DNA from: Maribellus sediminis
GTDB lineage: Bacteria; Bacteroidota; Bacteroidia; Bacteroidales; Prolixibacteraceae
Direction: 5' to 3'
DNA length: 64,000 nt
Assembly (NCBI RefSeq): GCF_011799805.1
Contig: NZ_WXUB01000003.1
Location: 682,001-746,000, forward strand
Below the pieces are notes generated by a model. It was given only the letters and a program-made list of their open reading frames with translations, ran no database searches and was not told the DNA's origin. The position numbers and the translations under genes were made by a program. Numbering within the stretch: the first letter of the stretch is position 1; each line of letters starts with the position of its first letter. Below, in pieces: positions 28,125 through 45,315 of this stretch.

Positions 28125-28383
28125 GGGGTAGACGGAGATTTTATTTTGTTCTTCATGGAATTGAATTGAAAAAAGAACTTTCTCCTCCTTTGTAAGGAGG
28201 AGTACCCTGATGTAGCTATGCGGAATCAGGGGGAGGTGGTAGAATCTGCAGACATTTTAAAGGGCGATTGCTTCGGTCTCCGTCAACTGACGGATCCCTC
28301 GCAATGACACGGTTTATCGTGGGATTTGGCAGTGGACCATGTAGTTTTTTGTCGGAAACATGATTCCTGTGGTCCGCTGCCCT
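28125..28383. repeat. 259-bp composite repeat, near-identical to 31126-31384
   Basis: The block joins an A half (CTCCTCC-GGAGGAG, CCCTGAT-ATCAGGG hairpin, GGAGGTGG), an R arm (GATTGCTTCGGTCTCC to CTCGCAATGAC, 28270-28310, with inner TCCGTCAACTGACGGA) and an h hairpin (28328-28383, GGCAGTGGACCA paired with TGGTCCGCTGCC). The second copy differs at only a few bases, so the duplication is recent. The pair flanks the S8 protease gene. Confidence 0.8.
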
Positions 28384-31125: not shown

Positions 31126-31448
31126 GGGGTAGAAGGAGATTTTATTTTGTTCTTCATGGAATTGAATTGAAAAAAGAACTTTCTCCTCCTTTGTAAGGAG
31201 GAGTACCCTGATGTAGCTATGCGGAATCAGGGGGAGGTGGTAGAATCTGCAGACATTTTAAAGGGCGATTGCTTCGGTCCCCGTCAACTGACGGATTCCT
31301 CGCAATGACACGGATCATCGTGGGATTCGGCAGCGGACCATGTAGTTTTTTGCCGAAAACATGATTTCCGTGGTCCGCTGCCCTGTATATGTAAATAACA
31401 TGTTATTGCGACGACGATCCGTCGATTGACGAAAGGAGGAAGCAATCA
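31126..31448. repeat. 259-bp composite repeat (second copy) plus degenerate L arm
   Basis: 31126-31384 repeats 28125-28383 with A half, R arm (about 31270-31308) and h hairpin (about 31329-31384). It is followed by an L arm with an inserted palindrome (31402-31446, TTATTGCGACGACGATCCGT then GAAGCAATC), so this copy keeps the R-h-L order that the 28-kb copy has lost. Confidence 0.72.
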
Positions 31449-32461: not shown

Positions 32462-33207
32462 GGTGGTTAATTTTTGATTTTCACTCGTTTACGTGAAATC
32501 CGTCCGATGGTTCCGTGCAACTGGTTTTTGCTCTACTACAACCTGTCGTTGCAAACCAGAGGTAGAAGGATTAGAAGATTGCTTCAGTCTCCGTCAACTG
32601 ACGGATTCCTCGCAATGACACGGTTCATAGTAGGATTTGGCAGCGGACCGTGTAGTTTTTTGCCGGAAACATGTTTCTTGTGGTCCGCTGCCTTTCATTG
32701 TATTGCGATTCTGTCATTGCGAGCGTAGCGAAGCAATCTATTTCTCATTGTAATGAGATTAAGGTTGAAAAAGATTGCTTCGTCGTTCCTCCTCGCAATG
32801 ACACGGATCATCGTGGGATTCGGCAGTGGACCATGTAGTTTTTTGTCGGAAACATGATTCTTATGGTCCGCTGCCCTGTATTTGTAAATAGCGATCCCGA
32901 TTTATCGGGAGAAGCAATCTCAACCTAGCCCCATGCTCATTCGAGGGGTAGTGAAGAATTACCGGTGAATTATGTTCACACTGCCATATGTGCAATATAC
33001 GGTTCAGCCTGCAATACCTGCAGTTCATACTTAATATCTTATCGTTCAGCGAAATTCATGTAACGAAAATCGTTTTAATGTGTCAATTTTATACAAGGAA
33101 ACAGGAAAAGACCGATTAGCCAGCGGCCTGTTTCGAAAGCGAAAACAGAAAACAAAATAAACAGGAAGTTGAATGTTTCAGCATTCGCTTCACAAAAAGC
33201 AAAAGCC
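32462..33207. repeat. Tandem R-h-L repeat units with empty 32-bp spacer
   Basis: Two complete units in tandem: R 32576-32619, h 32639-32692, L 32713-32739; spacer 32740-32771; R 32772-32802, h 32822-32875, L 32891-32920. R begins AGATTGCTTC and ends CGCAATGAC; L is its inverse (GTCATTGCGA to GAAGCAATCT); h is GGCAGCGGACC paired with GGTCCGCTGCC. The same tandem order at 40919-41578 holds a GIY-YIG gene instead of the 32-bp spacer. 32921-33207 has an E/D remnant (CCCCATGCTCATTCGAGGGG) and otherwise no gene. Confidence 0.82.
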
Positions 33208-40918: not shown

Positions 40919-41096
40919 AGATTGCTTCGTTCCCGAGTATTCGGGACAAGCAGTTCCTCCTCGCAATGACAATTATTAGTTTATAAAAGGCAGCGGACCA
41001 TGTGGTTTATGTTGGGATTGGGAAACTTGTGGTCCGCTGCCTGTTTCACCCTTATCGCGCGTCATTGCGATCCCGAGGACTCGGGAGAAGCAATCT
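40919..41096. repeat. R-h-L repeat unit, left of the GIY-YIG gene
   Basis: R 40919-40970 (AGATTGCTTCGTTCC, nested CGAGTATTCGGG insert, TTCCTCCTCGCAATGAC); h 40989-41041 (GGCAGCGGACCA with TGGTCCGCTGCC); L 41061-41096 (GTCATTGCGA, nested TCCCGAGGACTCGGGA, AAGCAATCT). Its last bases overlap the stop codon of the GIY-YIG gene. Confidence 0.8.
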
Positions 41097-41385
41097 ATTC
41101 TTTAATCATTAAGTCAGTCCATTCAGGATTCAGACGATTAATGAGATCAATTTTTTTCTGACGGGAACCTGCCTTTAATTGTTTTTCACGCGCAATGGCA
41201 TCATTGATATCCTGAAATAATTCGAAATAAACCAATTTATTCACCTTGTATTTAGATGTAAATGCATTCTTGAAAATCCCTTTTTTGTGTTGTTGAATTC
41301 GCTTGGTGAGGTCACTCGTAACGCCAACATAGAGAACCCTGTTTTCGGCGTTTGTAAGAATGTATATATAAGCTTCTCTTTTCAT
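41095..41385 (-). CDS. GIY-YIG nuclease family protein (UvrC/UPF0213-like)
   Basis: Start at ATG 41385 (MKREAYIYILTN); upstream in-frame sequence to 41682 is translated repeat DNA. 96 residues. The motif AYIYILTN ... VLYVGVT (5-22) is the GIY-YIG core, followed by the catalytic Arg region SDLTKRIQQHKKG (23-35), FELFQD with Glu, and AIAREKQLKAGSRQKKIDLIN ending in RLNPEWTDL. It is a complete stand-alone nuclease of the small bacterial type. The TAG stop lies inside the L arm of the flanking repeat, and the start is 32 bp from the next R arm. Confidence 0.92.
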   Translation of the reverse strand: MKREAYIYILTNAENRVLYVGVTSDLTKRIQQHKKGIFKNAFTSKYKVNKLVYFELFQDINDAIAREKQLKAGSRQKKIDLINRLNPEWTDLMIKE

Positions 41386-41416
41386 GAATCGGAGAATTTG
41401 GGTTAAAGTTACAAGA

Positions 41417-41790
41417 AGATTGCTTCGGTCGCAAACTCCCTCGCAATGACTGTCATTAGTAAATACAAGGCAGCGGACCATATGGTTTTTTGTTGGGAGT
41501 GGGAAACTTGTGGTCCGCTGCCCAATACTTAATATCGCATACGTCATTTCGATCCCGAGTACTCGGGAGAAGCAATCTGTTCCGTACCTACCCCTCGTTG
41601 CAAACGAGGGGTAGGTGGTTGATATGTTAATCTTTTTATGTACCACCCCGTCCCCGTCCGTCAGCTGACGGATCGGGGCCACCCCTCCTTAGACCCCCTT
41701 TGTCGGCCTCGCCCGGTCCGTACGCTGACATTTCCCCCTGCAGGGGGAAACAAAGCGGTAATTTTGATTTTTGGAGGGGAAATGTTCGTG
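41417..41790. repeat. R-h-L repeat unit right of the GIY-YIG gene, then A-B/E repeats
   Basis: R 41417-41450, h 41469-41522, L 41543-41578 (nested TCCCGAGTACTCGGGA). 41589-41608 is CCCCTCGTTGCAAACGAGGGG-like (short E/D hairpin). 41611-41790 is an A-B remnant: GGTGGTTGATATG, ACCACCCCG, CCGTCAGCTGACGG, GGGGCCACCCCTCC, then TTTCCCCCTGCAGGGGGAAA (nested palindrome) and GGAGGGGAAA. No gene lies between 41386 and 41950. Confidence 0.75.
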
Positions 41791-44865: not shown

Positions 44866-45315
44866 AAGTCGGTGTTCTGAGAATGCTTCATTAAATTTAC
44901 GAAGAGGTTGGGGAAAAACAAGGGGGAAGGGATTAGTTTGCAGTCGCAGAGAAGATTGCTTCGTTCCCGAGTATTCGGGACAAGCAGTTCCTCCTCGCAA
45001 TGACAATCATTTGTGAATATAAGGCGGTGGACAAGTAATTGCCACGAAGTGGTAAAATTTGAATAACCTCGGGTGAAACCCGTGGGACAATGCCGAATAC
45101 GAAACAGCCACGAAGTGGTTGAATGTGCACCAATGAGGGATAAAAGGATTATTCACCCCTTTCAGGGATAACAAAAAACCTTGACTTCTTCACCGGGTTG
45201 AAACCCGGGGTTATTCCTATTTAATTCCTTCGGGATAATGGAAAAGCAATCTGTTAGAATAAAGATCCCTGGTTGCAAACGATAGGCAGGACAGGTTTCC
45301 GTTAGCGAATGCTCA
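44866..45315. repeat. R arm and CCACGAAGTGG/CCCGGGTTTCAACCCGG repeats
   Basis: 44952-45003 is an R arm with the same nested CGAGTATTCGGG insert as 40919-40970, followed by a cut-off h hairpin (GGCGGTGGAC). 45040-45240 holds GCCACGAAGTGGTAAAATTTGAATA, CCTCGGGTGAAACCCGTGGG, a second GCCACGAAGTGGT, and CCGGGTTGAAACCCGGGGTTATT. No gene is seen. Confidence 0.65.

Follow-up and report, generated by a model that had tools for sequence, protein, structure and literature searches.

A family of small GIY-YIG nucleases bounded by GTCA-tagged palindromic repeats: a candidate partner enzyme for CGTC-type REPs

Background

REPs carrying a CGTC tag, among them dRS3 of Neisseria and RPE-4/RPE-6 of Rickettsia, were described by Di Nocera et al. 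(2013, PMC3733652) as repeats that "apparently lack a dedicated transposase", with either loss of the partner or the use of various transposases suggested as the reason. The accessible portion of that article names A. lipoferum 4B and S. meliloti as CGTC-bearing, lists Bacteroidetes among the phyla concerned and gives a CGTC (or TGTC, CCTC) tag adjoining a stem that starts with an A-T pair, a stem length of 8-9 bp, a loop of 4-5 bp and a CCA-like tail; the term GIY does not occur in it and no partner enzyme is reported there. Likewise, 'palindrom' is absent from the accessible text of the GIY-YIG survey of Dunin-Horkawicz et al. (2006), as are 'GIY' and 'nuclease' from that of RepRanger (2025), and among the titles listed in literature searches, made mostly without subscription papers and preprints, none reports a link between GIY-YIG proteins and REPs.

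Several described systems resemble the locus studied here, which lies in a 64,000-nucleotide window of the Maribellus sediminis genome (5.6 Mb, 13 contigs). Like the RAYT/REP systems (REPtron, REPIN), it combines an enzyme gene with its own tagged palindromic repeats, many copies of these elsewhere and clade-specific sequences, but the enzyme of those systems is an HUH/Y1 transposase and their tag GTAG, whereas here they are a GIY-YIG nuclease and GTCA. GIY-YIG homing endonucleases (I-TevI etc.) have the same catalytic domain, and presence or absence at similar sites would fit homing; unlike I-TevI relatives, the window protein has only about 96 aa, consists of the catalytic domain and was not seen inside an intron or intein. 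Its closest solved fold is that of the UPF0213-type protein BH0048 (1zg2), both by sequence (E 4.3e-13) and by structure (E 3.4e-4), followed in the structural comparison by Slx1, with the UvrC repair nuclease also among the nearest structures. Slx1 cuts branched DNA, and we know of no repeat link for UPF0213-type GIY-YIG proteins.

The arms of the window repeats are like CGTC REPs, as far as the accessible description of these goes, in the GTC(A) tag, a palindromic stem that begins with A-T and frequent inverted pairs; the arms at 41061 and 32713 and the R arms read (C/T/A)GTCATTGCG ... GCAATC, the base before GTC being not always C or T. Many dispersed copies are also present, with 21 exact R arms in the 5.6-Mb genome vs 0 for a reversed control pattern. 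We call the window arms CGTC-like because they depart from the published families in stem (an outer one of about 5 bp), in loop (long and variable, containing inner palindromes) and in tail (TCT, with no CCA).

Methods

An arm was defined by the rule GTCA-N4-N{4,50}-rc(N4)-TC, N4 being its core, and the flanks searched were 300 bp long. Since the rule was framed after the flanks of the genus set and some of the named set had been viewed, only a set from Bacteroidota counts as held-out; the rule was fixed before the held-out test and remained unchanged, and the far windows of that set lay 600-900 bp away. The genus set comprised 69 places, of which one without a tblastn match (L103) and two with short flanks were removed, leaving 66 loci. 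The named set consisted of the best 80 of 581 matches, four of them short-flanked, leaving 76 loci. For the held-out set 118 Bacteroidota genomes were drawn, 51 of which have a match at E 1e-15; the 106 places found were reduced to 101 (three from the window's own genome and two not fetched) and then to 97 (one without a match and three with short flanks), and some of these genomes may belong to the same species as named loci. A stricter label required either a shared core or a nearest properly oriented arm within 130 bp. For tests of arm copy number, broken gene copies were counted as present, and L006 was put in the TTTC clade by best match though its own arms are TTCC.

Results

The original prediction placed a GIY-YIG nuclease gene between two repeat units at 40919-41578, each unit consisting of an R arm, a central hairpin (h) and an L arm, and all of these parts were located in that order (Table 1). 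The TAG stop, said to lie in the L arm, occupies 41095-41097 and overlaps the final two bases of that arm, while the distance from the gene start to the next R arm, given as 32 bp, needs correction to 31 bp. The tandem at 32576-32920, in which two R-h-L units enclose a 32-bp spacer and no gene, is likewise present as described.

Table 1. Coordinates of the nuclease gene and repeat features in the window
Feature	Position	Strand	Remarks
R arm and h, no L arm	28265..28381		absent from original prediction
Additional R-h-L unit	31266..31447		L arm GTTATTGCG; absent from original prediction
R-h-L unit, first of gene-less tandem	32576..32739
32-bp spacer	32740..32771		between the two units, in the position occupied by the gene at 41 kb
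R-h-L unit, second of gene-less tandem	32772..32920		L arm without its GTCATT end
Unit 1 R arm	40919..40970	minus	GTCA tag on minus strand, core TTGC, inner palindrome
Unit 1 central hairpin h	40989..41041	n/a	GGCAGCGGACC...GGTCCGCTGCC
Unit 1 L arm	41061..41096	plus	last two bases belong to the stop codon of the gene
GIY-YIG nuclease gene	41095..41385	minus	96 aa; NPEW near C-terminus; KAGSR loop is residues 71-75
Unit 2 R arm	41417..41450	minus	31 bp upstream of nuclease ATG
Unit 2 central hairpin h	41469..41522	n/a
Unit 2 L arm	41543..41578	plus	decayed: GTCATTTCG
Lone R arm	44953..45004	minus	absent from original prediction

Each arm is a palindrome in itself (ATTGC...GCAAT; GTCATTGC ... 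GCAATC), a feature absent from the original prediction, and its inner loop differs from copy to copy and often contains a further small palindrome. The sequence of h varies among the units of the genome, most of those inspected by eye having a strong hairpin there. Single-stranded folding is strong for both units at the gene (z -9.8 for unit 1 and -5.0 for unit 2, 200 dinucleotide shuffles each); the proposed cruciform of the whole unit is possible as judged from folding energy only.

The window protein belongs to the GIY-YIG superfamily by its match to Pfam PF01541 (E 4.5e-18, 65.8 bits against a cut-off of 22.6), and it also matches T5orf172 (E 2.8e-4). Its structure model has a pLDDT of 93.2. 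Among 237 aligned relatives the catalytic residues are kept in nearly all proteins (Y8 in 229, Y19 in 236, R29 in 234 and E67 in 235), and the active-site columns Y8, Y19, G21, R29 and E67 as a whole are retained in 229 to 236. Neither the Pfam search nor the structure model gave a separate DNA-binding domain in the protein of about 96 aa, which comprises the catalytic domain only.

The linkage of nuclease and repeat proved far more general than originally thought. Arms were found in 88 of 132 flanks of the genus set, compared with 8/245 far windows and 3.5/132 shuffled flanks, and in 111/152 flanks of the named set (best 80 of 581 matches; far 9/268, shuffled 3.5/152); in the held-out set the figures were 146/194, 18/186 and 3.0/194. 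Rather than lying mostly away from such repeats, the relatives have at least one arm within 300 bp at 52/66 genus loci, 83/97 held-out loci and, among the best 80 of 581 matches, 67/76 named loci. By the strict rule no arm was present at 14/97 held-out loci and 9/76 named loci (best 80 of 581). A narrower pattern used in an early test, GTCATT(C/G)C, found arms at only 20/68 genus loci, with 42 arms in 45,491 near bases vs 3 in 88,102 far bases.

Where arms occur on both sides of a gene they usually share one core. This holds for 27 of 36 two-sided genus genes (permuted mean 9.9) and for 35 of 44 in the named set (best 80 of 581; permuted mean 7.9), with a maximum of at most 17 in 2000 permutations in either set, and for 51/63 held-out genes (permuted mean 10.3, maximum 21 in 2000 permutations). 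The nearest 5' arm is in '+' orientation at 45/56 named loci and the nearest 3' arm in '-' orientation at 36/55 (both from the best 80 of 581 matches), and 48 of 87 first '-' arms on the 3' side start within 10 bp of the stop codon. Reading of the genus flanks suggested a separate palindrome for each nuclease clade. One clade with a K/TAWTYITTN-type start (L045-L048, L069, L070) has, by eye, palindromes of the TGAGACC...GGAATCCTGCAC type, which are differently tagged and are therefore missed by the arm rule.

The genome of the window contains nine GIY-YIG matches, three of them of the window type with a C-terminal NPxW. The arms are TTGC at the window gene and TTCC at L006, while the third gene, L007, is enclosed by arms of the GTCATTCCCGC type. 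Five short genes of another type (L001, L002, L004, L005, L009) lie at tRNA genes (Asp, Val, Ala, Arg, Gly), beside partial tRNA copies recognized by eye, and look like a separate tRNA-associated group; the remaining match, a domain within a 610-aa frame, is probably uvrC. None of these six other GIY-YIG loci bears arms, nor does any of the seven Y1-transposase loci of the same genome (L031-L037). A Y1 transposase of the RAYT type was accordingly rejected as partner of the arms, and the REPtron hallmark, a Y1 gene flanked by the repeat, is lacking at the window locus, where the flanked gene is GIY-YIG. By eye, the Y1-transposase loci seem to carry different flanking repeats of their own. At L007, L050, L051 and L068, in four genomes, the GIY-YIG frame is free of stops through the following arm and into the next gene, giving frames of 541-619 aa; from its sequence, we take this next gene to be a 6-phosphogluconate dehydrogenase.

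Relatives at E 1e-12 occur in 28 of 37 genus genomes, with 1-7 matches per genome where present. In these 37 genomes TTGC arms have a median of 25 copies with a TTGC-clade gene vs 7 without (p 0.015, relatedness ignored), and TTTC arms a median of 34 with a TTTC-clade gene vs 10 without (p 0.011, relatedness again ignored). The crossed tests in the same genomes gave no association of TTGC arms (p 0.69) or TTTC arms (p 0.63) with the other clade. The maximum per genome was 46 TTGC and 116 TTTC arms. Some of the nine genomes that have no relative at E 1e-12 are rich in arms, namely G001 (116 TTTC, 15 TTGC), G022 (52 TTTC), G033 (42 TTTC, 34 TTGC) and G008 (23 TTTC, 15 TTGC).

Under the stricter label, 61 of the best 80 of 581 matches in the multi-phylum set were labelled; they span 14 of 15 named phyla, the exception being Verrucomicrobiota (0/2), and include all eight genes without phylum assignment. 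Many named loci among these 80 have long direct repeats on both sides, like the window. On plasmids, tblastn matches were found in 20 records, and eight of nine examined had arms by the rule, among them loci of A. lipoferum and S. meliloti; the plasmid of Sinorhizobium sp. K101 had no arm by the rule and, by eye, a CTCATTCC-type palindrome. The alphaproteobacterial arms (A. lipoferum, S. meliloti, Shinella, Rhizobium) have the GTCA tag and mostly a CCA-like tail, and fit the definition of CGTC REPs better than the window arms do. Two plasmid loci have distinctive neighbours: on Planktothrix agardhii plasmid p1 (L267) an MmeI-type restriction gene and DISARM drmA stand on either side of the arm-flanked GIY-YIG gene, and on Azospirillum lipoferum 4B AZO_p3 (L265) sufB and sufC do so. 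Phage records gave ten weaker matches, of 33.8-36.4% identity.

Residue 73 of the protein, a glycine in the window and a tryptophan in most relatives, is associated with the third base of the arm core. In the development sets (genus plus the best 80 of 581 named matches), proteins without W73 had a purine at core base 3 in 21 cases and a pyrimidine in three, compared with 4 and 80 cases for W73 proteins, and in the held-out set the corresponding purine/pyrimidine counts were 14/6 and 1/53 (p 1.2e-9). The six held-out misfits without W73 have Y, K or R at residue 73, or a KNGHK motif. All 12 labelled held-out proteins with an xG(S/N)R loop have cores ending in GC, four more such proteins being unlabelled. 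At all eight arm-bearing plasmid loci W stands at the residue-73 position, and the nearest clear arm has a pyrimidine as its third core base. For the complete set of 179 labelled rows whose first 90 residues contain no stop, the purine/pyrimidine counts were 37/7 without W73 and 5/130 with it; collapsing at 70% identity left 19/4 vs 4/62, and at 60% identity 8/3 vs 1/24 (p 4e-5).

A scan of all 96 columns ranked residue 73 first (z 21) and residue 74 second (z 10), with z taken from plain shuffles; the residues that followed core base 3 most closely were 73, 74 and 72, and for core base 4 they were 74 and 72. The tree, built on 93 columns, is poorly resolved, and an independent-pairs test had only one or two usable pairs on supported branches. 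The covariation of residues 72-75 with the core bases appears strong across the aligned proteins in a tree-uncorrected test, and may in part reflect descent. In the structure model residues 73-74 form the turn between two helices (60-72 and 75-85), the first of which bears the catalytic Glu67, and this position, taken with the covariation, would be expected of a turn that contacts the arm.

The original prediction also held that the gene moves within the repeat array, or that the nuclease spreads the repeats, and proposed a comparison of filled and empty sites. Gene-less R-h-L arrays do occupy the site orthologous to the window locus, upstream of its right-hand neighbour, in G017 and G004, which favours the proposal indirectly. 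At the same site no arm fits the rule in G005, G009 or G013, the only matches in G002 have an AATT core, and G019 has one distant arm. The L046 gene is absent from three relatives (L255-L257), where the adjacent R arm is present and the other side lacks a clean junction, and no pair compared gave a clean junction. In a search for an orthologous empty site for L040, run without a positive control, the flank was not found in seven relatives.

Two 400-kb stretches from genomes 95.7% identical (229 kb aligned) share six of seven mappable arm clusters, with eight unmapped. One R-h-L unit present in only one of these genomes corresponds to a scrambled intergenic stretch with no clean insertion boundary, and no exact insertion footprint was found in this comparison. 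Between G030 and G031, at joined-stretch position 194761 (L224), a 20-bp palindrome GCCTGCCTGACGGTAGGCAG is found in the arm loop of one genome only, which suggests insertion of a second, smaller palindrome into arms. L072 has an extra 91-bp repeat unit beside the gene compared with L073, which may be due to plain recombination or slippage. Two similar arm-bearing nuclease copies about 2.5 kb apart (L039 and L066, at G026:C27:10205-13014) suggest a local duplication of gene and units. Some nuclease genes look vertically inherited: in one clade, seven loci can be aligned along most of the locus at about 84 to 96%. With no clean junction or insertion at the sites compared, movement of the gene or its units is plausible rather than demonstrated.

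Discussion

On the sequences compared, relatives of the window nuclease are mostly bounded by GTCA-tagged arms, usually with one core per gene, and the clades differ in that core. The association of this nuclease family with GTCA-tagged REPs is well supported by genomic sequence and, as far as our literature searches show, unreported. The nuclease protein likely recognizes the arm, and the gene more likely than not encodes a dedicated endonuclease of a REP-like repeat family; the most likely reading of the sequences is that the nuclease recognizes and cuts its own REP.

How such a system might spread can be outlined as follows. The protein would bind its own arm through the turn at residues 72-75 and cut there, perhaps on an extruded hairpin, and the break would be repaired by copying from another arm-bearing locus, whether or not this carries the gene. 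In this way new sites and tandem arrays would gain arm pairs and, rarely, the gene itself, a process resembling homing. GIY-YIG enzymes are known to cut by hydrolysis, and for this reason we propose repair instead of strand transfer. On this scheme L-gene-R would represent the complete element, with L-spacer-R or R-h-L units as incomplete relatives of it. Spread by cutting and repair seems to us the best mechanism, at about an even chance or slightly above it.

One possible alternative is that the arms are only a homing site, into which a selfish free-standing endonuclease inserts after they have spread by another route. The existence of arm-rich genomes without the gene, the absence of the gene at sites where arms are present, and the few nuclease matches per genome (1-7 where present) beside up to 116 TTTC arms would all agree with this. 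Nevertheless we consider it unlikely, since arm copy number tracks the cognate clade and not the other one, and the stop codon lies at the arm edge in about half of the measured cases, which fits gene and arms as a unit.

A domesticated host function, in which the nuclease restrains arms or cruciforms (in repair, recombination or at transcription ends) and the gene stays close to its target through co-inheritance, appears improbable. Some clades have long, stable loci, Slx1 and UvrC repair nucleases are among the nearest structures and the arms fold strongly, but the presence of the gene is patchy (51/118 Bacteroidota genomes at E 1e-15, 28/37 genus genomes), and multiple copies per genome together with broken copies containing internal stops would be unusual for a housekeeping gene. 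Hitchhiking, by which arms collect in loose intergenic space where small non-essential genes happen to sit, is very improbable: although the arms are largely intergenic and in arrays, and held-out far windows are not empty (18/186), the agreement of cores on both sides is far above permutation, the Y1-transposase and other GIY-YIG genes of the window's own genome bear no arms (0/13), and protein residues follow arm bases.

A dedicated nuclease that acts on its own repeat is the reading we favour. In its widest form, which we hold tentatively and somewhat short of probable, a single-domain GIY-YIG family across bacteria would be the missing enzyme of GTCA/CGTC REPs, with a partly legible code in residues 72-75 (cores that end in GC would be read by xGSR, for instance, and a pyrimidine at core base 3 by W) and spread by cutting and repair without transposase chemistry. 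A candidate partner with a recognition loop visible in the sequence makes the origin and persistence of CGTC-type REPs directly testable. If the reading is true, REP systems originated on two or more occasions, each time around an unrelated enzyme, and a nuclease of 96 residues that owes its specificity to a short loop would serve as a simple model of the evolution of DNA recognition.
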